The position numbers and the translations under genes are program-made. From Tomitella fengzijianii (GTDB lineage: Bacteria; Actinomycetota; Actinomycetes; Mycobacteriales; Mycobacteriaceae), in contig NZ_CP041765.1 in assembly GCF_007559025.1 (NCBI RefSeq), forward strand, positions 3,531,501 to 3,595,500: a DNA stretch of 64,000 bases, written 5' to 3'. The notes beneath the pieces are model-generated. The model had not been told where the DNA came from. It saw nothing but the letters and a program-made list of their open reading frames with translations, and searched no databases. Of this stretch, positions 16,246 through 28,443 are shown piece by piece (position 1 is the first letter of the stretch; each line of letters starts with the position of its first letter).

Positions 16246-16334
16246 GGCCCATCCCCGCCGTGACGGGGAACACGCTGTTTCCTGGTGGCCCTGCATGGGA
16301 AAAACCGGATCACCCCCAGGCGTCCGGGGAGAGG
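16246..16334 (-). CRISPR. cryptic mini-array: two degenerate type I-E repeats around one 33-nt spacer
   Basis: Read on the minus strand, 16334-16307 is a degenerate copy of the main array repeat: 18 of 28 positions match, including CTCCCCG near the start and TGATCC at the end. 16273-16246 is a second copy with 21 of 28, beginning GTGTTCCCCG and keeping a CCCCG/CGGGG stem. The 33 bases between them equal the spacer length of the main array, so the period is exactly 61 bp. No third copy is seen 61 bp to either side. The element points away from cas3. It may be a relic array or a crRNA-like regulatory RNA; the sequence alone does not decide. Confidence 0.65.
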
Positions 16335-16391: not shown

Positions 16392-16421
16392 TTGACGGCA
16401 GTCATCGTCCTGACAAATAAT
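16392..16421 (+). promoter_or_regulatory. putative cas operon promoter
   Basis: TTGACG (16392-16397) and AATAAT (16416-16421), separated by 18 bp, form the best sigma-70-type promoter in the region, about 90 bp before the cas3 start. A weaker pair, TTGACT (16447) and TATACC (16468) with a 15-bp spacer, lies further down. The AT content contrasts with the surrounding 70% GC. Confidence 0.5.
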
Positions 16422-16507
16422 GTTTTCCCTATCCAGGCTCAATCCATTGACTTAGTTGACTACTCGCTATACCGTGATCTCACGCCCCCAAGAGAGGCAG
16501 GTCACAG

Positions 16508-19330
16508 ATGTATCAGCCGGGTACGACAAGTTCGACTCTTTCCGCCCCAGCGAGTTCCGCGTGGGCGAAGTCCGATCGTGACGGCAACTGGGCTCCACTC
16601 GCCCGCCACATGGCCGACTCCGCCGCGATCGCCGGGCTTCTCTGGGATGAGTTCCTCTCTCCCGCGGTGCGGCGGCTCGTCATCGACGCCATCGGCGACG
16701 AAGACCGCGCGCGCAGGGTCGCGGTGTGGATGGCGGGCGGCCACGACCTCGGCAAGTGCACCCCCGCCTTCGCGATCCAGGCCCCGGCGCTGTGCGACCG
16801 CATGATCGAGATGGACCTCGAGGTCCGCATCGGGATCGGGGACGGCGGACGCAAGGTCGTGCCGCACTCGCTCGCCGGCTTCACGCTGTGGACCGCGTGG
16901 CTCGAGGAGCGCGGCGTGAAGGCCACCCGGGCATGGACCTATGCGGCCGCATCGGGCGGCCATCACGGTGTGTACCCCGACGGCGGCGACGACACTCGGG
17001 CGATGCCCGGCACCCTCTTCACCGGCGAGTCCCAGACCTGGCGCGACACGCAATGGGAACTGGCGGACTTTGCGACCACTCTCGCGGGAATCACTGTGGA
17101 CGACATCGCCACGTTCGCGAAGAAGCCGCTTCCCCAGCAGGTGCAGGTGCTGCTCACCGGATTCACGATCATGGCCGACTGGCTCGCCTCCAATGAGCGC
17201 TGGTTCCCCCTCACCGACGGGGCCCGCACCTCCGAAGAGCGCGCCGATGCTGCGGTACGCGACCTCCGCTTCCCTGCCCCCTGGTCGCCCGAACCACCGC
17301 ACGAAGCAGACGAGCTGTTAAGGTCCCGATTCGGCCTCTCCGCCGGCCGTGTTCGCCCGGTCCAGGCTGCGGCTGTCGACGTCGCTCGAGCATGCGCCGG
17401 CGCCGAGCTGATGATCATCGAGGCACCCACCGGCGAGGGCAAGACATTCGCGGCACTCGCGGCTGCCGAAGTTCTCGCGGCGCGATTCGGTCTCGGCGGC
17501 CTCCAGTTCGCCCTGCCCACCTGCGCCACGTCGGATGGCATGTTCCCGACCATCGCCCGATGGCTGCCGACGACGATGCCTTCCGACACGAGGGCATCGC
17601 TCGCCCTCTCGCACGGCCGTGCCCAGTTCAACGATCAGTACCAGGGTCTGCTGGGGCGGCGTGGATTCCGCTCGACCGGTATCGGCGAGGGCACGGACCG
17701 CTGCGGCGGTGAAGTCGTCGCACACTGGTGGCTGTCGGGCCGCAAGTCGGCGGCGCTCGCCGACTTCGTCGTCTGCACCATCGACCAGATCCTGTTTTCG
17801 GCCCTGAGCTCCCGGCACGTCATGCTGCGCCACCTGGGCATGGCGGGCAAGGTTGTGGTGCTCGACGAAATCCATGCTGCCGACGCATTCATGTCCCAGT
17901 ACCTGCACCGGGCGCTGGAGTGGCTCGCCGCCTACGGGGTGCCGGTGATCGCGCTTTCTGCCACCCTTCCGCCCGCTCAACGCACCGAGCTGCTGACCGC
18001 CTACAACAAGGGCCGCGGGCGCAAGGTTCCCAGCGGCGCCTACCAGGCAAGCGCCGACGCCGCCGGCTATCCGCTGATCACGGTCACCGCCCCGGCAGGA
18101 GCCGCGTCCGTCGCCGTCGAACCTTCGTCCCGTCGGGTCCAGTACCAAGTCGAGTGGCACGAGGCAAACGACTCGGATGGCGCCGACGATGCTGCCGCCC
18201 TCGCCTCCGACGTCGCCGTCGCGGCAGCCGACAGCGGGTGCATCGCGGTCGTGTGCAACACAGTCAGGCGCGCGCAGGCTGTTTTCGGCGCCCTCCAGAC
18301 CGTACTCGGCGACGATGTCGTACTGCTCCATTCCCGGTTCGTCGCGCAGGAGCGCGCCCGCATTGAGAACCGGTTGCGGACCGGGCTGGGGCCAGACGCA
18401 GGCGACTCTCGCCCCAAACGCCTCGTTGTAGTCGCGACGCAGGTTGTGGAGCAGTCGCTCGACCTCGATTTCGACCTGATGTTCACTGACATCGCGCCGC
18501 TCGATCTCGTCATCCAGCGTGCAGGTCGGCTCCACCGCCACGCACGGGAGTCACGCCCCCGCGGGATGGAGCGTGCTCGGCTCGTGATCACCGGGACACG
18601 CCGCTCCGTGCAGGGAGACCCACGATTCGCGCCTGGGCTCACTTCGGTCTACCCGACGATCGCACTGCTGCGTTCCGTCGCCTGCCTCGACGCACACGGG
18701 CCGCTCATCCTCTCGCCCGCCGATGTCCCCGGGCTGGTTCGGTTCGCCTACGACGAGGGGCTCGAGCCTCCTGCCGACTGGCGGGCAGCTTGGGCGAAGG
18801 CCGAGGACCGGGATCGCGATCGCGTGGCGGACCAGGTCTCCAGGGCGAAGGTCTTCCGCATCGCCGCCCCCAAACGCGGCGGGAACATGCGCGGATGGAA
18901 CAGCCTGCGCGGCGCCGAAGGCTCCGACGACGCGCTCAGCCAGGCGCAGGTGCGCGACGCCGCCGACGCGCTCGAGGTGATCGTGGTGCAGCGCATCTCC
19001 GGCGCCATCGTGGGCCCGCCGTGGGCGGGCGAGCTCGCCGGTATGCCGCTGGAATCGGCGACCGTCGTCGATGACGACCTCGCCCGCACGATCGCCCGAT
19101 GGACTGTGCGCTTCCCCGCCTACATGGGCGACGGGAAGCTCGGTGACGCCGTCATCGACGCCCTCGAAGAGAACAAGATCGACTCTTGGCAGAACTCGCG
19201 ATGGCTCGGCGGCGCACTCGCGCTGGTGCTGGACGAGGATCTCCGTGCCGTAGTCGCCGGCTTCGACGTGGCCTACGACGTGCGCCGTGGGCTCATCGTG
19301 AAAAAATGCAGGAGGACCAGTGACGTTTAA
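16508..19330 (+). CDS. cas3: CRISPR-associated nuclease/helicase Cas3 (type I-E)
   Basis: Recruited by Cascade to degrade target DNA: an HD nuclease nicks the displaced strand and a superfamily 2 helicase pulls it through. The 940-aa protein has the HD part first (RHMADSAAIA near residue 34, GGHDLGK near 78, SGGHHGVYPD near 155). Then come Walker A EAPTGEGKTFAAL near 304, the DEAH-box variant VVLDEIHAADAF near 450, and motif VI QRAGRLHRH near 667. The C-terminal part is typical of Cas3e. ATG 16508 follows AGAGAGG. Its end overlaps the cas8e start by 11 nt. All catalytic motifs look intact. Confidence 0.95.
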   Translation: MYQPGTTSSTLSAPASSAWAKSDRDGNWAPLARHMADSAAIAGLLWDEFLSPAVRRLVIDAIGDEDRARRVAVWMAGGHDLGKCTPAFAIQAPALCDRMIEMDLEVRIGIGDGGRKVVPHSLAGFTLWTAWLEERGVKATRAWTYAAASGGHHGVYPDGGDDTRAMPGTLFTGESQTWRDTQWELADFATTLAGITVDDIATFAKKPLPQQVQVLLTGFTIMADWLASNERWFPLTDGARTSEERADAAVRDLRFPAPWSPEPPHEADELLRSRFGLSAGRVRPVQAAAVDVARACAGAELMIIEAPTGEGKTFAALAAAEVLAARFGLGGLQFALPTCATSDGMFPTIARWLPTTMPSDTRASLALSHGRAQFNDQYQGLLGRRGFRSTGIGEGTDRCGGEVVAHWWLSGRKSAALADFVVCTIDQILFSALSSRHVMLRHLGMAGKVVVLDEIHAADAFMSQYLHRALEWLAAYGVPVIALSATLPPAQRTELLTAYNKGRGRKVPSGAYQASADAAGYPLITVTAPAGAASVAVEPSSRRVQYQVEWHEANDSDGADDAAALASDVAVAAADSGCIAVVCNTVRRAQAVFGALQTVLGDDVVLLHSRFVAQERARIENRLRTGLGPDAGDSRPKRLVVVATQVVEQSLDLDFDLMFTDIAPLDLVIQRAGRLHRHARESRPRGMERARLVITGTRRSVQGDPRFAPGLTSVYPTIALLRSVACLDAHGPLILSPADVPGLVRFAYDEGLEPPADWRAAWAKAEDRDRDRVADQVSRAKVFRIAAPKRGGNMRGWNSLRGAEGSDDALSQAQVRDAADALEVIVVQRISGAIVGPPWAGELAGMPLESATVVDDDLARTIARWTVRFPAYMGDGKLGDAVIDALEENKIDSWQNSRWLGGALALVLDEDLRAVVAGFDVAYDVRRGLIVKKCRRTSDV

Positions 19331-20927
19331 CCTCATCGACGAACCGTGGATCGTCGTACGACGGATCGGAGGCGAGGCCGACACCGTCTCGCTGCGGACG
19401 CTGTTCGCGGAGGCGCCGCGCATTCGTCGCCTCGCCGGGGAATTGCCCACCCAGGACTTCGCGGTGCTGCGGATCGCGCTCGCCGTGTTGTACCGCGCGG
19501 TGGCATACGAGATCGACAGCGCGCCAACCACGGTAGCCGAAGAACTTTGGGAGGCCCCGGGACTTCCGCTGGATCAGGTCGACGCCTACCTCGACCAGTG
19601 GCATGACCGGTTCGAGTTGTTCGACGACCATGCGCCCTTCATGCAGGTAGCCGACCTCGCCTCACCGTCGGGTGCACAGGGCGATGTCAGACTGCTCCTG
19701 CCGGACGCGCCCCGCGGCGAGCCGCTGTTCACGATGCGATCGGCCGTCGACTCCCTGACCTTCGCCGAGGCCGCCCGCTGGTTGGCGCACTGCCAGGCCT
19801 ACGACTTTTCCGGAATCAAGACGGGCGCCGTCGGCGACCCACGAGTCAAGGGTGGCAAAGGCTACCCGATGGGAATCGGATGGGCCGGTTGGCTGGGCGG
19901 AGTCGTCGTCGAAGGCGACTCTCTGCACCACACATTGCTGCTCAATCTCGTACTCGAGGACGAGCTGCGCGACGACGACCTGCCGGTGTGGGAACATAAG
20001 CCCCTCACCGCCGCGCCGCGCCCCCCGCACGCGATACGGCCGCGGGGCCCGGCCGGGCTGTTCACCTGGCCGCAGCGCCGCATCCGGCTCTTCCGAACAG
20101 ACGACGCGGTCGACGCGGTGCTCGTGTGCAACGGCGACCCCGTCCCCTACACCTCCCAAATCCGCAACGAGCCGATGACTGCCTGGCGCTACTCCGAACC
20201 GCAGTCGAAGAAGTTCAAGTCGACGGTCTACATGCCGCGCGCGCATGATCCGGAGCGCTCGTTCTGGCGCGGGCTGGCAACGATTCTCAGCGGAGGGGAG
20301 CGCAGCGGCAGGGAGAACAAGACTCACGTCGCAGCCAGTGTGCCGCCCACCGTGGTCACCTGGGCCGGCGATCTCGTCGCGGCGGGAATCCTCCCCCGCG
20401 AGATGCTCATCCGTGCCTGCGCGGTGGGCATCGAATACGGCGCGCAGAGCTCCAGCTACGGCAATCTCATCGCAGACGACCTCGTCTTCCACCCCGTGAT
20501 CGCTCAACCCGGTGATGTACCGCAGAAGCTCGCGGTCCTCCAGGCCGTCGAGCACGCCGACAGGGCCGTCAGTGCCTTGGCATCGCTCGGCGGCGACATC
20601 GCGATCGCATCGGGCGGCGAGCGTGGACCCGCAGCGCAACGGGCGCGCGCCAGCGGCTATCACGCACTCGATTCCGCATTCCGCGAATGGGTCTCGACGG
20701 TGCGCCCCGACTCGGACGTCGCAGCACTGGATCGCCAGTGGTCCGATCGTTGCGGCGCGCTCATCCGCGCCGAGTCCGACGTCATCATCGCCGCGGCCGG
20801 TCCGGCGGCCTGGATCGGCCGTGAGCACGACGGAAAACCTCTCACCGTCGGCCACGCCGACGCCCGTTTCCGCAGGACGCTCGCGTCGATCCTACCGTTC
20901 ACCCCCACCGAGGAGCGTCCCGCATGA
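19320..20927 (+). CDS. cas8e: Cascade large subunit Cas8e (Cse1/CasA)
   Basis: Large subunit of the type I-E effector complex, which recognises the PAM and helps open target DNA before recruiting Cas3. 535 aa. The N-terminus FNLIDEPWIVVRR is diagnostic for Cse1. The segments GIKTGAVGDPRVKGGKGYPMGIGW and PAGLFTWPQRRIRL with YTSQIRNEPMTAWRYSEPQ match the family's conserved core and loop regions. GTG 19320 lies inside the cas3 3' end behind GGAGG at 19311. The stop overlaps the cas11 start (ATGA), indicating coupled translation. Confidence 0.95.
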   Translation: MTFNLIDEPWIVVRRIGGEADTVSLRTLFAEAPRIRRLAGELPTQDFAVLRIALAVLYRAVAYEIDSAPTTVAEELWEAPGLPLDQVDAYLDQWHDRFELFDDHAPFMQVADLASPSGAQGDVRLLLPDAPRGEPLFTMRSAVDSLTFAEAARWLAHCQAYDFSGIKTGAVGDPRVKGGKGYPMGIGWAGWLGGVVVEGDSLHHTLLLNLVLEDELRDDDLPVWEHKPLTAAPRPPHAIRPRGPAGLFTWPQRRIRLFRTDDAVDAVLVCNGDPVPYTSQIRNEPMTAWRYSEPQSKKFKSTVYMPRAHDPERSFWRGLATILSGGERSGRENKTHVAASVPPTVVTWAGDLVAAGILPREMLIRACAVGIEYGAQSSSYGNLIADDLVFHPVIAQPGDVPQKLAVLQAVEHADRAVSALASLGGDIAIASGGERGPAAQRARASGYHALDSAFREWVSTVRPDSDVAALDRQWSDRCGALIRAESDVIIAAAGPAAWIGREHDGKPLTVGHADARFRRTLASILPFTPTEERPA

Positions 20928-21625
20928 CATCACCATCGCCCCAGTCGACGGGCAAATCGGCAGAACTCGGCACCGCTGACATCGCGCAGAAGGTGCGGCG
21001 CCTGCAAAAGCCGCGCACCGACCTTGGCCGGCACGCCTCCCGGCTGATCCACGTCCTGCAGAAGCGTGCCCTCGCCCGCGGCGGCGATTCCTGGTCCAAT
21101 GCCACGCTGGCGCGCCTTCGCCGCGCGGTGCAGCATCCTGTGGGCGCCGACCCGGCCGTGTGGGAGTTCCTCTTCGAGGACCTCCCCGAGCACTGTTTCG
21201 GCAAAGGTGACGACCCGTCACCCGACGAGCGTGCCGTCCACGCCGCGGCAACTCTGTACGCCGTTCACCAGCAGTCAAAGGACCGTCCGATGCACGTCGA
21301 CGGCGAGGGATTCGGCACGGCGATCCGCCGGCTGGCCAATCCGCAAGACGCGGCCGAACTGGCGATGCCGGTGCTGCGCCGCTTCAACGCGCTGGCCACC
21401 GCCGACAACCTCGACGAGCAGCTGCATCACGCACGGGGGCTGGTCCAGCTGATGCGCCGTGAGTCGATCGGTTTCGACTACGGCACCTTCGCCGAAGACC
21501 TGGCCCGGCTGCAAGACCCCGCCCACGCCGACGCGGTGCGGCTCCGGTGGGCCCGCCAGTTCCATCGGAGCATTCGGCCTGCCGCGCGCGCCGACAAGAC
21601 GGAGTCCGCACCGCAGCCTGCCTGA
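20924..21625 (+). CDS. cas11: Cascade small subunit Cas11 (Cse2/CasB)
   Basis: Small helical subunit, two copies of which normally line the belly of type I-E Cascade and stabilise the R-loop. 233 aa, somewhat longer than E. coli CasB. The conserved helical text includes ATLARLRRAVQHPVG, VHAAATLYAVHQQ and FGTAIRRLANPQDAAELAMPVLRRFNAL, and RQFHR close to the C-terminus. It overlaps cas8e by four bases and is followed by a 42-bp gap before cas7. Confidence 0.92.
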   Translation: MTSPSPQSTGKSAELGTADIAQKVRRLQKPRTDLGRHASRLIHVLQKRALARGGDSWSNATLARLRRAVQHPVGADPAVWEFLFEDLPEHCFGKGDDPSPDERAVHAAATLYAVHQQSKDRPMHVDGEGFGTAIRRLANPQDAAELAMPVLRRFNALATADNLDEQLHHARGLVQLMRRESIGFDYGTFAEDLARLQDPAHADAVRLRWARQFHRSIRPAARADKTESAPQPA

Positions 21626-21667
21626 CCGAATACCACCCGACTCACCCGCATACAGGAGCCAAACATC

Positions 21668-22807
21668 ATGAACCGCAGCCTCATCGACGTCCACATCCTG
21701 CAGACCCTGCCGCCGTCGAACGTCAACCGCGACGACACCGGCAGCCCCAAGAGCGCCGTCTATGGCGGCGTGCGGCGTGCCCGCGTGTCCAGCCAGGCGT
21801 GGAAGCGCGCGACCCGCCAGGCTTTCCACGACCATCTCGACGAGTCCGAGCTGGGCGAGCGCACCAAGTTCGTCGTCGAGAAGATCGCCATGAAAATCAC
21901 CGAGCTCTCCCCCCACCTGGAGAACGCGCCGAAGCTCGCTGAGGAGGTGCTGGCTGCGACCGGCATCAAAGTTACGCCCGCCAAGAAGGCGAAGAAGTCG
22001 GAGGAACAGGAAGAGCAGGCCGCCACCGGTTACCTGCTGTTCCTCGCTCGCCGCCAGATCGAAGGGCTGGCCGCGCTGGCCGTCGAGGCGGGCGCGTCCA
22101 GCGCCAGGATCGAGAAGAAGGCGGCGAAGGCGGTACTCCAGGAGGGCAACAGCATCGACCTGGCGCTGTTCGGCCGAATGGTGGCCGATGCGCCCGATCT
22201 TAATGTCGACGCGTGCTGCCAGGTGGCACACGCGATCAGCGTGCACGGCGTACAGAACGAGTTCGACTACTTCACCGCAGTCGATGACAACGGCAGCGAG
22301 GACCACGCCGGCGCCGGGATGATCGGCACCGTCGAGTTCAATTCGTCTACCCTCTACCGGTACGCCACCATCGATGTCGATGAGCTGGCGAAGTCCCTCG
22401 GCTCGGTCGAGGCGGCAGCACGCGCCGTGGACGCGTTCCTCACCGCGTTCGTCACCTCGATGCCTACCGGCAAGCAGAACACCTTCGCCAACCGCACCCG
22501 TCCCGACTTCGTCATGGTGACGATCCGTGACGATCAGCCCGTCAACCTCGTCGGCGCGTTCGAGACGCCGATCGAGTCGAACGACGGCCGGATGCTCCGC
22601 GCCGCCCAGACACTGGTGGAGTACGCCGCGCGGCAGGACGACGCATACCGCACCGCACCGCACGCCCAGTACGCCCTCGCTGTGGGCATGGCCGATTCCG
22701 ACGAGCTGAGTGAGGCACTCGCGCAGCGGGCCGAGCTGGTTGATCTTCCCTCAATGATCGAGCGCACCGTCGCCACGATCGGCGACCGGGCGGCGGTGCC
22801 GGCGTGA
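21668..22807 (+). CDS. cas7: Cascade backbone subunit Cas7 (Cse4/CasC)
   Basis: RAMP-fold backbone protein that polymerises along the crRNA spacer. 379 aa. The start NRSLIDVHILQTLPPSNVNRDDTGSPKSAVYGG followed by RRARVSSQAWKRATR is the hallmark of Cse4. A charged Lys/Glu insertion (KKAKKSEEQEEQ) near residue 115 is specific to this sequence. The central GTVEFNSSTLYRYATIDVDEL and PTGKQNTFANRTRPDFV motifs are conserved. AGGAG precedes ATG 21668, and the stop overlaps the cas5 GTG. Confidence 0.95.
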   Translation: MNRSLIDVHILQTLPPSNVNRDDTGSPKSAVYGGVRRARVSSQAWKRATRQAFHDHLDESELGERTKFVVEKIAMKITELSPHLENAPKLAEEVLAATGIKVTPAKKAKKSEEQEEQAATGYLLFLARRQIEGLAALAVEAGASSARIEKKAAKAVLQEGNSIDLALFGRMVADAPDLNVDACCQVAHAISVHGVQNEFDYFTAVDDNGSEDHAGAGMIGTVEFNSSTLYRYATIDVDELAKSLGSVEAAARAVDAFLTAFVTSMPTGKQNTFANRTRPDFVMVTIRDDQPVNLVGAFETPIESNDGRMLRAAQTLVEYAARQDDAYRTAPHAQYALAVGMADSDELSEALAQRAELVDLPSMIERTVATIGDRAAVPA

Positions 22808-23499
22808 CCACCCTGGTGATCCCGTTGCGCGGACCGATGCAAGCGTGGGGCGGGTCGAGCCGGTTTTCCCGGCGTGAAACCGGACCGGTCCCCACCAAGA
22901 GCGGCATCGTGGGGTTGCTGGGGGCAGCGCTCGGTCGTCGGCGCACCGACCCGATCGAAGACCTCGCCCAACTGCGCTTCGGCGTGCGCACCGACCAGCA
23001 GGGCTCGCTCGAGCGCGATTTCCAAACCGCCAAGCCGCACGGCGAGCCGCACTCGAAGCTCTCCTACCGCTTCTACCTCGCAGACGCCTTGTTCCTGGCC
23101 GCGGTTGAGGGCCCCGACGAGGTCATCGGCGGGCTCGCAGGCGCACTCCAGAACCCGAAGTTCCCGCTGTTCCTCGGCCGGAGGTCTTACCCGCCCGCCG
23201 GGCCGATCCGCGGCGAGGTCGTCGACACGCCGATGCCCGAGCTCCTGCGTACGCACCCGTGGCATGCCGCCGAGTGGTATCGGAGACGCCAATCCAGGCA
23301 GGTGTCACTGCCGATCGTCCGCGATCCGCTGCCGGAAGAAGACAAGCACGAGGTAGTGCGCGACCTTCCCTTCAGTTTCGATCCGCGGCACCGTGAGTAC
23401 GGCTGGCGGGAGGTCCATCACGAGCGGACCGACCAGTTTGACAACCCGCTCGGCAGGCGCGCCGTCCACGATCCACTCGCACTCCTCGGGGGAGCCTGA
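22804..23499 (+). CDS. cas5e: Cascade subunit Cas5 (CasD)
   Basis: RAMP protein that caps the 5' handle of the crRNA. 231 aa. The N-terminus reads TLVIPLRGPMQAWGGSSRFSRRETGPVPTKSGIVGLLGAALGRRR, with the family-wide MQAWG and PTKSG motifs. LGRRSYPPAGPI near the middle is also characteristic. GTG 22804 overlaps the cas7 stop. The stop codon shares its final base with the cas6 ATG, so the subunits are tightly coupled. Confidence 0.95.
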   Translation: MTTLVIPLRGPMQAWGGSSRFSRRETGPVPTKSGIVGLLGAALGRRRTDPIEDLAQLRFGVRTDQQGSLERDFQTAKPHGEPHSKLSYRFYLADALFLAAVEGPDEVIGGLAGALQNPKFPLFLGRRSYPPAGPIRGEVVDTPMPELLRTHPWHAAEWYRRRQSRQVSLPIVRDPLPEEDKHEVVRDLPFSFDPRHREYGWREVHHERTDQFDNPLGRRAVHDPLALLGGA

Positions 23500-24176
23500 T
23501 GTACCTGACCCGCATGTTCCTCAATCCACGCCGGCGCGGAGCCATGAAGCTCCTCGGATCTCCGCAGGCAATGCACGCGGCGGTCATGGCGGGCTTCCCT
23601 CCGGGCACCGAGACCACGACGCCTCGGGGCCGCGTGCTGTGGCGGGTCGACAGGCCGGCACCCGAGCAGGTGGCGCTCTTCATCGCCAGCCCACACGAGC
23701 CGTGCCTCGTGCACCTCAAAGAGCAGGCCGGGTGGAGCACCGCGGACGCCTGGCACACCCGCGACTACCGCCCCCTGCTCGACGGGCTCTGTGCCGGCGA
23801 CCAGTACAACTTCCGTCTCGTCGGCAACCCGACCCATCGCGGCAAGGATTCTCGTGGTGTCACCAAGGTTTTCGCGCACGTGACGGTGGCGCAGCAGGAG
23901 CATTGGCTGCTGCGCAAGGCAGAGCTGCACGGGTTCAGCCTGACCGCGCCCGCCGCCGAGGGGGACGGTTCGGGTTTTCCGGGGCCGATGATGGTCGCCG
24001 ACCGGCAGACGCGGCGGTTCCGGCGCTCCGGATCCAGCGTCGAGGTCGGCACGGCGCGCTTCGACGGCGTTCTCGAAGTCACTGATCCCGACGCGCTGCG
24101 CATGGCGCTCTGTCACGGCATCGGCCGGGCGAAGGCCTACGGCTGCGGCCTGATGACCTTGGCCCCGGTCGGATGA
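23499..24176 (+). CDS. cas6e: crRNA endoribonuclease Cas6e (Cse3/CasE)
   Basis: Cleaves the array transcript at the base of the repeat hairpin and stays bound to the 3' handle. 225 aa. The start MYLTRMFLNPRRRGAMKLLGSPQAMHAAVMAGF is diagnostic, with a His in the catalytic region (AMHAAV). The C-terminal glycine-rich loop GIGRAKAYGCGLMTLAPV is complete. The strong CCCCGCG...CGCGGGG stem in the main repeats is a suitable substrate. The cas5 stop overlaps its start. Confidence 0.95.
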   Translation: MYLTRMFLNPRRRGAMKLLGSPQAMHAAVMAGFPPGTETTTPRGRVLWRVDRPAPEQVALFIASPHEPCLVHLKEQAGWSTADAWHTRDYRPLLDGLCAGDQYNFRLVGNPTHRGKDSRGVTKVFAHVTVAQQEHWLLRKAELHGFSLTAPAAEGDGSGFPGPMMVADRQTRRFRRSGSSVEVGTARFDGVLEVTDPDALRMALCHGIGRAKAYGCGLMTLAPVG

Positions 24177-24183
24177 GGCGGCA

Positions 24184-25155
24184 GTGAACACACCCGGCAT
24201 GAGGCCCGCCCGGCCGCAGGAGCTGACCAGAGTCGAAGATCGACTTTCGTTCGTTTACGTGGAACGATGCACGATCGGACGCGATTCGAACGCGATCACC
24301 GCGACGGACGACCGCGGCGTAGTGCACATCCCCGCAGCGTCACTGGGCACACTGCTGCTCGGCCCCGGCACCCGTGTGACTCACCAAGCCATGGTGCTGC
24401 TTGCCGACAGCGGCAGCACCGCCGTGTGGGTGGGTGAGCACGGCATCCGCTATTACGCGCATGGCCGTGGCCTCTCGCGTACCACCCGGATGCCGGAGGC
24501 GCAGGCTGCTGCTGTGTCGAATACGCGATCGCGCCTTGCCGTGGCACGAGCGATGTATTCGATGCGGTTCCCGGGCGAAGACGTCGGCAGGCTCAGCATG
24601 CACCAGCTACGCGGCCGCGAGGATGCACGTGTACGGAGGATCTACCGGGACGAGTCCGAGCGGACCGGCGTCGAGTGGCATCGGCGCGATTACGACCCGG
24701 CGGATTTCGCTGCGTCAGACGAGATCAATCAGGCGCTGTCGGCGGCGCATACGAGCCTGTACGGCGTGGTGCACGCGGTGATCGTGGGCCTGGGCTGTTC
24801 GCCGGGGCTCGGCTTCGTCCACACCGGGCACGATCGCGCATTCGTCTACGACATCGCTGATCTGTACAAGGCCGACGTCACGATTCCGATCGCATTCTCG
24901 GTGGTCGCGGACCTGCTAGCGCGAAGGGACGACGCAGATACCGGCGCGATCGACGTTCCATCGGCCACCCGACGCGCAGTGCGTGACGCGATGAAGGGAC
25001 ACCGTGTGATCTCCCGTTGCGTCGCCGACCTACGGCGTCTTCTGCTGCCGGACGACGACGGTGCCGGAGCGGAGGCCGAGATCCTCGAACTGTGGGATGA
25101 CAGGGTCGGCCGCGTCGCGGGCGGAGTCAACTACGAGGAAGACGTGCCTTGGTAG
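24184..25155 (+). CDS. cas1: CRISPR adaptation integrase Cas1 (type I-E)
   Basis: Integrase that, with Cas2, inserts new spacers at the leader end. 323 aa. The N-terminal beta domain contains RVEDRLSFVYVERCTIGRD and the helical domain has NQALSAAHTSLYGVVHAVIVGLG. FVHTGHDRAFVYDIADLYK carries the conserved His and Asp of the metal site. GTG 24184 is used; ATG 24199 is an alternative giving a start nearer to the usual PRPQELTR. It overlaps cas2 by seven bases. Confidence 0.94.
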   Translation: MNTPGMRPARPQELTRVEDRLSFVYVERCTIGRDSNAITATDDRGVVHIPAASLGTLLLGPGTRVTHQAMVLLADSGSTAVWVGEHGIRYYAHGRGLSRTTRMPEAQAAAVSNTRSRLAVARAMYSMRFPGEDVGRLSMHQLRGREDARVRRIYRDESERTGVEWHRRDYDPADFAASDEINQALSAAHTSLYGVVHAVIVGLGCSPGLGFVHTGHDRAFVYDIADLYKADVTIPIAFSVVADLLARRDDADTGAIDVPSATRRAVRDAMKGHRVISRCVADLRRLLLPDDDGAGAEAEILELWDDRVGRVAGGVNYEEDVPW

Positions 25156-25490
25156 TTTTCATCCTCACCGCCTGCCCTGCCGGCCTCCGGGGGCATCTGA
25201 CCCGGTGGCTCATGGAGGTCAGTGCCGGCGTGTTCGTAGGGCATGTCTCCAACCGCGTGCGCGAACACCTGTGGAGCCAAGTGGTCGATCTGGTCAAAGA
25301 CGGGAAGGTGATCATGGTCTATCCCGAGGACAACGAGCAAGGGCTTGCCTTCCGGACACACCGGCACGAATGGACGCCGGTCGACCTTGACGGCATCACC
25401 TTGATGAGCCGCCCGATGGACACTCAAGCAACTCGAGGCCGGGTTCGCCGTGGATGGAGCACCGCATCCCGACGACGTCGCCACTCGTAG
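25149..25490 (+). CDS. cas2: CRISPR adaptation protein Cas2e
   Basis: Partner of Cas1 in the spacer integration complex. 113 aa, starting at TTG 25149 inside the end of cas1. VVFILTACPAGLRGHLTRWLMEVSAGVFVGHVSNRVREHLW is a typical Cas2e opening. The core ends at DLDGITLMSRP. The Arg-rich tail, GWSTASRRRRHS, resembles tails of other actinobacterial Cas2e proteins, so the frame is accepted as intact. The array starts 58 bp after its stop. Confidence 0.93.
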   Translation: MVVFILTACPAGLRGHLTRWLMEVSAGVFVGHVSNRVREHLWSQVVDLVKDGKVIMVYPEDNEQGLAFRTHRHEWTPVDLDGITLMSRPMDTQATRGRVRRGWSTASRRRRHS

Positions 25491-25548: not shown

Positions 25549-26056
25549 GTGCTCCCCGCGAACGCGGGGATGATCCCGCGGCCTCTTCGATGACCTGCGT
25601 CCGCTCCAGGTGCTCCCCGCGAACGCGGGGATGATCCGACGGACAAGATCATCGCACCGATCATCCGACGGTGCTCCCCGCGAACGCGGGGATGATCCCA
25701 TCTTGAGGGCGCCGACTATCTTCTCGATACGGTGCTCCCCGCGAACGCGGGGATGATCCCCAGGCTTCAATTACGTAATCGGGAGTGGCACCGTGCTCCC
25801 CGCGAACGCGGGGATGATCCGTCGCCGAGAGCCCGTGCGCGCGCGATGTTCTTGTGCTCCCCGCGAACGCGGGGATGATCCGCACAAGATCAAACCGTCG
25901 ACGCGCAACGGGTAGTGCTCCCCGCGAACGCGGGGATGATCCGTCCGTGGTGATGGGACTCTGAAACTCAAAGACGTGCTCCCCGCGAACGCGGGGATGA
26001 TCCGGTAGTCACTCACTGCGCTTCACCACCCCACGGGTGCTCCCCGCGAACGCGGG
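25549..26056 (+). CRISPR. type I-E CRISPR array, leader-proximal part (8 spacers)
   Basis: Eight complete 28-bp repeats start at 25549 and recur every 61 bp, each beginning GTGCTCCCCGCG and ending GGGGATGATCC with an internal CCCCGCG/CGCGGGG stem. The ninth, from 26037, is cut after 20 bases by an IS30-family insertion. Spacers are 33 bp. Repeats here are identical to one another, which fits the young, leader-proximal end. Confidence 0.97.
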
Positions 26057-27152
26057 GGCAGTGTCAACTCGTGGAAGCAATCGGCTCGGCCAGTAGCTTC
26101 GTGAACACCTCCCGCGGGGTGAGGAAGCCGAGTACCGCGCGTGGCCGGTCGTTGAGCTCGTCGGCGATCGTGTCCAGGTAGGGCTGGTGGTCGGTGATCT
26201 CGATGCCCTTCGGCAGGTACTCGCGGATCAGCCCGTTCGTGTTCTCGTTGGTGCCGCGCTCCCACGGCGAGTGCGGATGAGCGAAGTACACCTTCAGGTC
26301 CGTGGCCGTGGTCAGCGCGGCATGCCGGGCCATCTCGGTCCCCTGATCCCAGGTCAGGGAACCGAGGATGTGCCGGGGCATGCCGCTGACCGTATCGATG
26401 AGCACATCTGCGAGGCCGTCGGCGTTCTTACCTGCGGGAAGACCGCAGATCAGGGTGAACCTGCTGGTGCGCTCGACCAAGGTGGCGGCCGCGGACTTGC
26501 CGCCCTTCCCGATGATCAGATCGCCTTCCCACGATCCAGGAACCCTGCGGTCGGAGGCCTGCTCGGGCCGGTCGTCGATCGAGACCATGCCGACGATCTT
26601 CGCGCCGGTGCGCTCGCCGAGCGCCTTACGGGGCTTGCGGCGGGTGCGCTTGGAGCGCAACAGGATCCCGGACTTGGCGAGCTCGCCCTTGGGCAGCGCG
26701 TAGATCCACTGGTAGATGGCCTCGTGTGAGATGGTTCGGCCTCCGGCGTCAGGGGAATGCACCATGGTGTCCACGCTGTCGTCGGTAGCTTCACGGTGCA
26801 ACCTGCCGGCGATCTGGCGGGGCGTGCGTGAGTGGCGCAGATCGGTGCGGACCCGCAGCTCAAGCTGCGGGTCCGCGTCGATCTTGCGGGTCTGTGGTCT
26901 GCTACGGCGCCCTCGTGCTGCGCGGTCGGCGGCCACTGGCCGGTAGCCGCCGGCCGCGCTGGCGTTGCGTTTGCGTTCGCGCCAGATCACCGTCGGGTTC
27001 CGGCCGATGTCCTCACCGATCTCCGCGTCGGACAGACCGGCCTTGATCCCGACCGCGATCTGCACTCTGTCGTCCAGCGTCAGCTGCCGCCGCCCCAACC
27101 CACCACTCCTACCGTGTCACCAGCATCATTGCTACGACGCTATGACACCGCC
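26057..27152 (-). mobile_element. IS30-family insertion sequence inside CRISPR repeat 9
   Basis: About 1.1 kb with imperfect terminal inverted repeats. The left end reads GGCAGTGTCAACTCGTGGAA and the right end, read inward, GGCGGTGTCATAGCGTCGTA; both continue to AGCAAT. Most of the first 25 bases agree. The split repeat has three G residues on the left and four on the right, consistent with a 3-bp GGG target duplication (2-4 bp possible because the site is a G run). One transposase gene fills the element. Confidence 0.9.
26064..27098 (-). CDS. IS30-family transposase
   Basis: DDE transposase of 344 aa for the element in which it lies. The N-terminal HTH reads LTLDDRVQIAVGIKAGLSDAEIG then IGRNPTVIWRE. 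The catalytic domain has GSWEGDLIIGK (Asp), TWDQGTEMARH (Asp) and NENTNGLIREYLPKG (Glu), the IS30 DDE set with the usual spacing. Its stop lies within the left terminal repeat. The gene looks intact, so the element may be active. It is oriented against array transcription. Confidence 0.95.
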   Translation of the reverse strand: MGRRQLTLDDRVQIAVGIKAGLSDAEIGEDIGRNPTVIWRERKRNASAAGGYRPVAADRAARGRRSRPQTRKIDADPQLELRVRTDLRHSRTPRQIAGRLHREATDDSVDTMVHSPDAGGRTISHEAIYQWIYALPKGELAKSGILLRSKRTRRKPRKALGERTGAKIVGMVSIDDRPEQASDRRVPGSWEGDLIIGKGGKSAAATLVERTSRFTLICGLPAGKNADGLADVLIDTVSGMPRHILGSLTWDQGTEMARHAALTTATDLKVYFAHPHSPWERGTNENTNGLIREYLPKGIEITDHQPYLDTIADELNDRPRAVLGFLTPREVFTKLLAEPIASTS

Positions 27153-28443
27153 GGGGATGATCCGTTGATCCCCGTACTCGTGGTGAGCGCGGAAATGTGC
27201 TCCCCGCGAACGCGGGGATGATCCCCACCGTGGCCTGCATGTGTGCGCGATGGGCATGTGCTCCCCGCGAACGCGGGGATGATCCGCCGAGGTCCCAGAG
27301 GAGCTGCGACCATTCCGGGTGCTCCCCGCGAACGCGGGGATGATCCGGTCCGCGTGTTGTCCGTTCGGCGCGCAGGAAAGTGCTCCCCGCGAACGCGGGG
27401 ATGATCCGTACGTGCCCGCCTTCGTGATGCCCGAATCAGAGTGCTCCCCTCGAACGCGGGGATGATCCTCGCGGCCACATCATCCGCGTGCTTCAAGTCC
27501 AGTGCTCCCCGCGAACGCGGGGATTATCCTTGTAATTAGTTATCGTTAATTGGAATTGCAAAGTGCTCCCCTCGAACGCGGGGATGATCCGCGGCGGCAT
27601 CCGGCCGGTAAGCTTCGTGACCCGTGCTCCCCGCGAACGCGGGGATGATCCGTTGATCCCCGTACTGGAGGTGAGCGCGGCAATGTGCTCCCCGCGAACG
27701 CGGGGATGATCCGAAACCCGCTGGTCGGCGAACTACACGCGTGTGGTGCTCCCCGCGAACGCGGGGATGATCCCTCCACACCAGACGGAGTCCTGTAGTC
27801 GTCCAAGTGCTCCCCGCGAACGCGGGGATGATCCTTACTGGGTCGTCGCGGGTGACACCTGGTTGACGTGCTCCCCGCGAACGCGGGGATGATCCTGTAG
27901 TCAATTGCTGACTTGCGTCCACGCTTGCGTGCTCCCCGCGAACGCGGGGATGATCCTCGTATGAGTCCGCATTAGCACAATTGTCGTGGGTGCTCCCCGC
28001 GAACGCGGGGATGATCCTTACGTAATCGGGCGTAGCACCACGGCCAAGCGGTGCCCCCGCGAACGCGGGGATGATCCCAGTCCGACACTCTTCGAGTCCG
28101 AGCCGATCCGGTGCTCCCCGCGAACGCGGGGATGATCCGCTGCGGCACCGGTTCGCGACGCGCGCGTACGCGTGCTCCCCGCGAACGCGGGGATGATCCG
28201 GTGAACGCCTGGTCCCTGCCGGGTGTGCTGGGGTGCTCCCCGCGAACGCGGGGATGATCCCCCTGCCGGATCCCAGACGATGTTCGGTGCCGAGTGCTCC
28301 CCGCGAACGCGGGGATGATCCCAAGTCCCCGGATCCGTTCGTGCAGGGCAAGGCGTGCTTTCCGCGAACGCGGGAATGATCCTGGTCGCAGCTGCTCTGG
28401 GACTTGGGCTTCCGGGTACTCCTCGCGAACCCGGGGATGATCT
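27153..28443 (+). CRISPR. type I-E CRISPR array, distal part (21 spacers)
   Basis: This begins with the right half of the split repeat (GGGGATGATCC to 27163). Full repeats follow from 27197 at 61-bp steps to 28051, then 28111, 28172, 28233, 28294, 28355 and 28416. Together with the proximal part there are 30 repeats and 29 spacers. Variants: CCCCTCG in repeats at 27441 and 27563, GATTATCC at 27502, a one-base deletion at 28051 (27-bp repeat), and several changes in the last two repeats, as expected for the old end. The next 80 bp to 28523 hold no gene. Confidence 0.97.

Follow-up and report, generated by a model that had tools for sequence, protein, structure and literature searches.

The window analysed here, a stretch of 64,000 nucleotides of the Tomitella fengzijianii genome, carries a type I-E CRISPR-cas locus in which all the genes of this type are present as open frames with NCBIfam matches, followed by an array whose 28-nt repeat is GTGCTCCCCGCGAACGCGGGGATGATCC. 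The array is interrupted by an IS30-like transposase (HTH_38 + rve; 26064-27098), several near-identical copies of which lie elsewhere in the genome. Three pairs of its spacers (25760/28018, 27286/28383 and 27163/27652) each derive from a shared protospacer or from related ones that differ slightly, a pattern suggestive of repeated sampling of a single phage family. Upstream of cas3 lies a mini-array, i.e., two degenerate type I-E repeats around a 33-nt spacer, read on the minus strand from 16334 to 16246. The features of the locus, in order of position, are:

16246-16273, minus strand: psi-R2, the downstream degenerate repeat, GTGTTCCCCGTCACGGCGGGGATGGGCC, 21/28 identical to the array repeat, with a full stem
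16253-16313, minus strand: predicted mature crRNA-like RNA of 61 nt, placed by a presumed Cas6e cut at the stem base, on the analogy of type I-E crRNAs
16274-16306, minus strand: the 33-nt spacer, GGTTTTTCCCATGCAGGGCCACCAGGAAACAGC, with its match to the cas3 promoter at nt 2-21
16307-16334, minus strand: psi-R1, the upstream degenerate repeat, CCTCTCCCCGGACGCCTGGGGGTGATCC, 18/28 identical to the array repeat, with a full stem
16392-16421, plus strand: candidate cas promoter P1 (TTGACG, 18 nt, AATAAT), a consensus match only
16419-16421, plus strand: PAM AAT, the final three bases of the -10-like box; the AAN class is supported by relatives
16422-16453, plus strand: protospacer, matched at 13/16 and 15/20 of its proximal and 0/12 of its distal positions
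16447-16475, plus strand: alternative cas promoter P2 (TTGACT, 17 nt, TACCGT), picked by eye and under the scan threshold
16508-19330, plus strand: cas3, the first gene downstream of the targeted promoter
19320-25490, plus strand: cas8e (cse1), cse2, cas7, cas5, cas6e, cas1e and cas2e, the type I-E operon, as open frames
25549-28443, plus strand: main CRISPR array with a 61-bp unit, split by the IS30-like element at about 26064-27098

The anatomy given in the preliminary description, namely two degenerate minus-strand repeats (18/28 and 21/28) placed exactly 61 bp apart and framing a 33-bp spacer, was recovered in full at its coordinates. Its impression that the repeat stems are partly preserved proved too cautious: both stems are complete, by pairing as well as by folding, which yields a hairpin in each repeat. 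In psi-R1, the stem comprises T5-G22, four C-G pairs, G10-T17 and G11-C16, while in psi-R2 it comprises T5-A22, four C-G pairs, G10-C17, T11-G16 and C12-G15; several pairs have been retained through compensated or G-U changes. The last 7 nt of psi-R1, GTGATCC, form the prospective 5' handle of a guide and differ from the array repeat by a single base, and psi-R2 would supply its 3' hairpin. A canonical CRISPR array unit has near-identical repeats behind a leader; the mini-array, with its 18/28 and 21/28 repeats, is not of this kind, and no similarity longer than 9 nt links it to the leader of the main array. Outside the main array, no second repeat pair of like quality occurs in the 64-kb window and no array-type repeat (three or fewer mismatches) in the genome, and simulation of 7.3 million positions under a third-order Markov model fitted to the window produced no such pair by chance. 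A promoter consensus scan found no strong promoter for the mini-array, and the mini-array together with the region upstream of cas3 had 0 matches to Rfam families.

The spacer points to the cas operon itself. Its nt 2-21 match plus-strand positions 16422-16441 at 15/20 positions, with mismatches at 6, 9, 12, 17 and 18 (counted from the second base of the spacer; its first base is equivalent to repeat base 29 / PAM -1 of the E. coli scheme). Of these, 6, 12 and 18 are not read by Cascade. The match over the whole protospacer is 15/32, and the 32-nt protospacer, ending at 16453, also spans the -35-like TTGACT of P2. Across both strands of the whole 64-kb window, this site is the top match of the spacer at 16 as well as 20 nt. 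Dinucleotide-shuffled spacers equal the match within the 173-bp stretch between the element and cas3 with a probability of 0.0017, or 5e-5 with an AAN PAM, and the 27 array spacers compared with this stretch all fall short of it. Across the 4.0-Mb genome, 13/16 matches occur at eight sites, counting the one in the cas3 promoter and excluding the spacer itself; hence, it is the location rather than the match alone that is notable.

One array spacer (28139-28171), counting one repeat base, is perfectly matched over 32 nt in the integrase gene of the Gordonia phage Bakery, where the flank in the register chosen here is ACG; the imperfect homolog of this protospacer in a Mycobacterium phage is flanked by AAG. 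Three degenerate patterns searched against IMG/VR returned no protospacers of the array. The PAM of the system is thus deduced from the imperfect homolog and, for the most part, from relatives of the locus.

These relatives were surveyed through the sequences preceding cas3 homologs in genomes of its family, order and class, together with five loci from genome_contigs; the scans covered 121 regions. An any-PAM scan without array masking was overwhelmed by repeats and was superseded by a masked one, in which no PAM was imposed and shuffles served as the control. This first scan, which counted positions 6 and 12, found the PAM AA in 12/121 regions against 2/1210 shuffles, and its mismatches gather at these two positions, which take 13 of the 25 mismatches lying between positions 6 and 16 (one match per lineage; P 1.5e-5). 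A relaxed scan that ignored both positions recovered 26/121 regions, or 25 distinct loci with L031 and L158 counted as the single locus they represent, against 2/2420 shuffles. Although its settings were adjusted once the first examples had been seen, and although related genomes do not count as independent cases, the signal is still far over the control. When the PAM requirement was dropped, AA was found in 26 loci, with a background share of 3.2%, followed by CC in five. A second repeat was no requirement of the scan, yet one with all six stem pairs comes next in 24 of the 26 hits, the exceptions being L047 with five pairs and L092 with three. Two loci, L115 and L132, were found in the first scan alone. 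The closest Cas3 relatives, L112 and L114, were missed by the first scan because it required a canonical stem; read by eye, they also bear the element, and L112 has the PAM AAT and mismatches at 6, 9 and 12, as in the window.

Several loci of the survey show variations on this arrangement. In L044, one CreR-like spacer apparently has two targets, at -98 and -299 from cas3, both with the PAM AAC, and two targets (AAC and TAC) are likewise possible for one CreR-like spacer in L113. In L050, L093 and L100, the targets are on the strand opposite to cas3, some 190-400 bp before the gene; here, the repressed promoter may serve another gene, making these possible CreA/CrePA-like cases. A near-intact repeat-spacer-repeat is also seen upstream of cas3 in Leucobacter sp. 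wl10 (L012, about 2770-2860), where no promoter target was detected.

Selection on the element can be read from three Corynebacterium-like orthologs (L029, L129 and L130), in which the alignment proposed in the preliminary description was carried out. There, 83/88 columns of the element are invariant, as against 108/154 between the element and cas3 and 101/186 in the left flank, and the changes in the repeats sit in the loop. The first 17 spacer bases differ in only two places, seed positions 2 and 5, each a C to T change, and both are matched in the target, where ACGTC becomes ATGTT. Conservation of the element thus exceeds that of its flanks, and its seed covaries with its target.

Within the genus, no cas3 was found in the other species examined. 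In one of them (G002), the sequences that flank the island in the window (15908 and 28521) are separated by about 430 bp containing neither cas genes nor the element; in another (G003), the gap measures about 6.5 kb and is occupied by other sequence. Thus, the element and the cas genes come and go as one island, which is absent from both sisters. A segment of the window at 16004-16117 matches G003 sequence located between its two flanks.

These patterns bear directly on the possibility, raised in the preliminary description as the simpler one, that the mini-array is a functionless relic, i.e., the decaying leftover of an old repeat-spacer-repeat. The degeneracy of its repeats and their distance from the main array are what such a relic would display. 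However, decay does not sit well with two complete stems held by compensated pairs, with a spacer that matches the adjacent cas promoter, with relatives that retain the same logic in other sequences, or with orthologs in which the element varies less than its flanks and the seed changes covary; the relic is accordingly regarded as very unlikely. A slightly smaller chance still is given to the other alternative named there, an antitoxin of the CreA type (CreTA/CrePA), in which the guide would repress a toxin gene or toxic RNA expressed from the targeted promoter. Its anatomy is identical to that of the mini-array, and a small RNA toxin of a novel type could be accommodated in the 80-nt leader before cas3. 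Against it, the targeted promoter runs straight into cas3, the frames starting between the target and cas3 have TTG or GTG starts alone with no clear ribosome-binding site, and no Rfam family matches this interval, in which no likely toxin frame was found. Least probable of all is an accidental autoimmune spacer, which the locus would have taken up from its cas promoter in the past and which mismatches would since have inactivated, since, for all the resemblance of the spacer to that promoter, a 15/32 match with 0/12 distal positions is unlike a decayed 32/32 copy, the mismatches fall at unread positions across many independent cases, and the repeats of the mini-array are not part of any array.

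Judged from its sequence, the element is thus very probably a mini-CRISPR of the CreR type, whose crRNA-like product would repress the cas operon that supplies its own effector, and a probable member of that already described class. The preliminary description had raised this reading without naming a target; it is now strongly supported by the PAM-flanked promoter match, the recurrence in relatives and the covariation of the seed. The anatomy that characterizes CreR is found at this locus: a mini-CRISPR by the cas genes, a partial match with a PAM in the own promoter, and intact Cas6 and Cascade genes.

The mechanism may be envisaged as follows. A minus-strand transcript would be cut by Cas6e into the 61-nt crRNA-like RNA and loaded into Cascade, which would bind at the AAT PAM within the -10 box of P1 and open about 16-20 bp across the P1 start site, reaching the -35 of P2. 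In PMC5904413, E. coli Cascade is described as binding with a PAM and about 5 bp of seed, as having every sixth position flipped out, and as reaching its top affinity with 18 or fewer proximal base pairs, with interference needing wider pairing; according to PMC9718816, R-loop locking and Cas3 recruitment require the R-loop to extend to the PAM-distal end. Since the spacer matches at 15/20 proximal but 0/12 distal positions, its R-loop should halt before the locked, Cas3-recruiting state, such that the bound Cascade would block RNA polymerase and leave the chromosome uncut. Free Cascade would thereby repress its own operon, while extra crRNAs or a Cascade-removing anti-CRISPR would relieve the repression; cas expression is therefore predicted to rise when crRNAs or anti-CRISPRs occupy Cascade. 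In this high-GC actinomycete, the locus lends itself to direct tests of how a CRISPR system may regulate itself. Moreover, the comparative set joins natural covariation of the seed, a PAM in the -10 box and mismatches where Cascade cannot read, and in these features evolution may be said to have written out the binding rules of Cascade.

A parallel may be struck with several known systems. CreR RNAs (Liu et al., 2023, Cell Host Microbe, doi 10.1016/j.chom.2023.08.005), as described in PMC13131331 and PMC12737573, are reported to autorepress types I-B, I-E and V-A. Like the mini-array, they are mini-CRISPRs beside cas genes and partly complementary to the promoter of those genes, type I-E being among those reported, and the lack of a visible toxin gene is a further likeness. 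Set against CreR as so described, the mini-array, characterized here from its sequence, has as its own traits an orientation divergent from cas3 and a PAM in the -10-like box, to which may be added the 33-nt and 21-nt spacer classes of its relatives. CreA of CreTA/CrePA (Li et al., 2021; PMC9458426; PMC10097628) shares the two degenerate repeats and a spacer partly complementary to a promoter, but targets the promoter of a toxin rather than that of the cas genes. With the canonical array of its own locus, the mini-array has in common the 28-nt repeat, the 33-nt spacer and the repeat hairpin, whereas it consists of a single unit with degenerate repeats on the opposite strand, and matches its own promoter in part. 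Finally, in the autorepression of SpyCas9 (Workman et al., as outlined in PMC13131331), an effector likewise represses itself and is relieved by anti-CRISPRs, though Cas9 is a type II protein and no type I mini-array is involved.

The spacers of the relaxed-scan hits fall largely into two lengths, 21 nt in nine hits (eight distinct loci) and 33 nt in seven, the latter being the class of the window element; 32 nt is seen in three related loci, and 20, 22, 24, 28, 31, 34 and 39 nt once each. The 12 nt that separate the two classes equal two 6-nt Cas7 modules. In type I-E Cascade with spacers 6 or 12 nt shorter, Cas3-mediated degradation persists at a markedly lower rate, according to PMC7296934. 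A tentative proposal, held at somewhat less than even confidence, is that CreR is common in actinobacterial type I-E systems in two forms, with 33-nt and 21-nt spacers, the short form giving a smaller Cascade with weakened cutting that acts as a dedicated repressor. Any novelty would lie in the 21-nt class, which, if true, points to length-tuned Cascade repressors built from the same proteins. Spacers of exactly 21 nt were observed in L031, L039, L044, L056, L100, L126, L128 and L131, and the 39-nt spacer belongs to L055, where it corresponds to 33 plus 6 nt.
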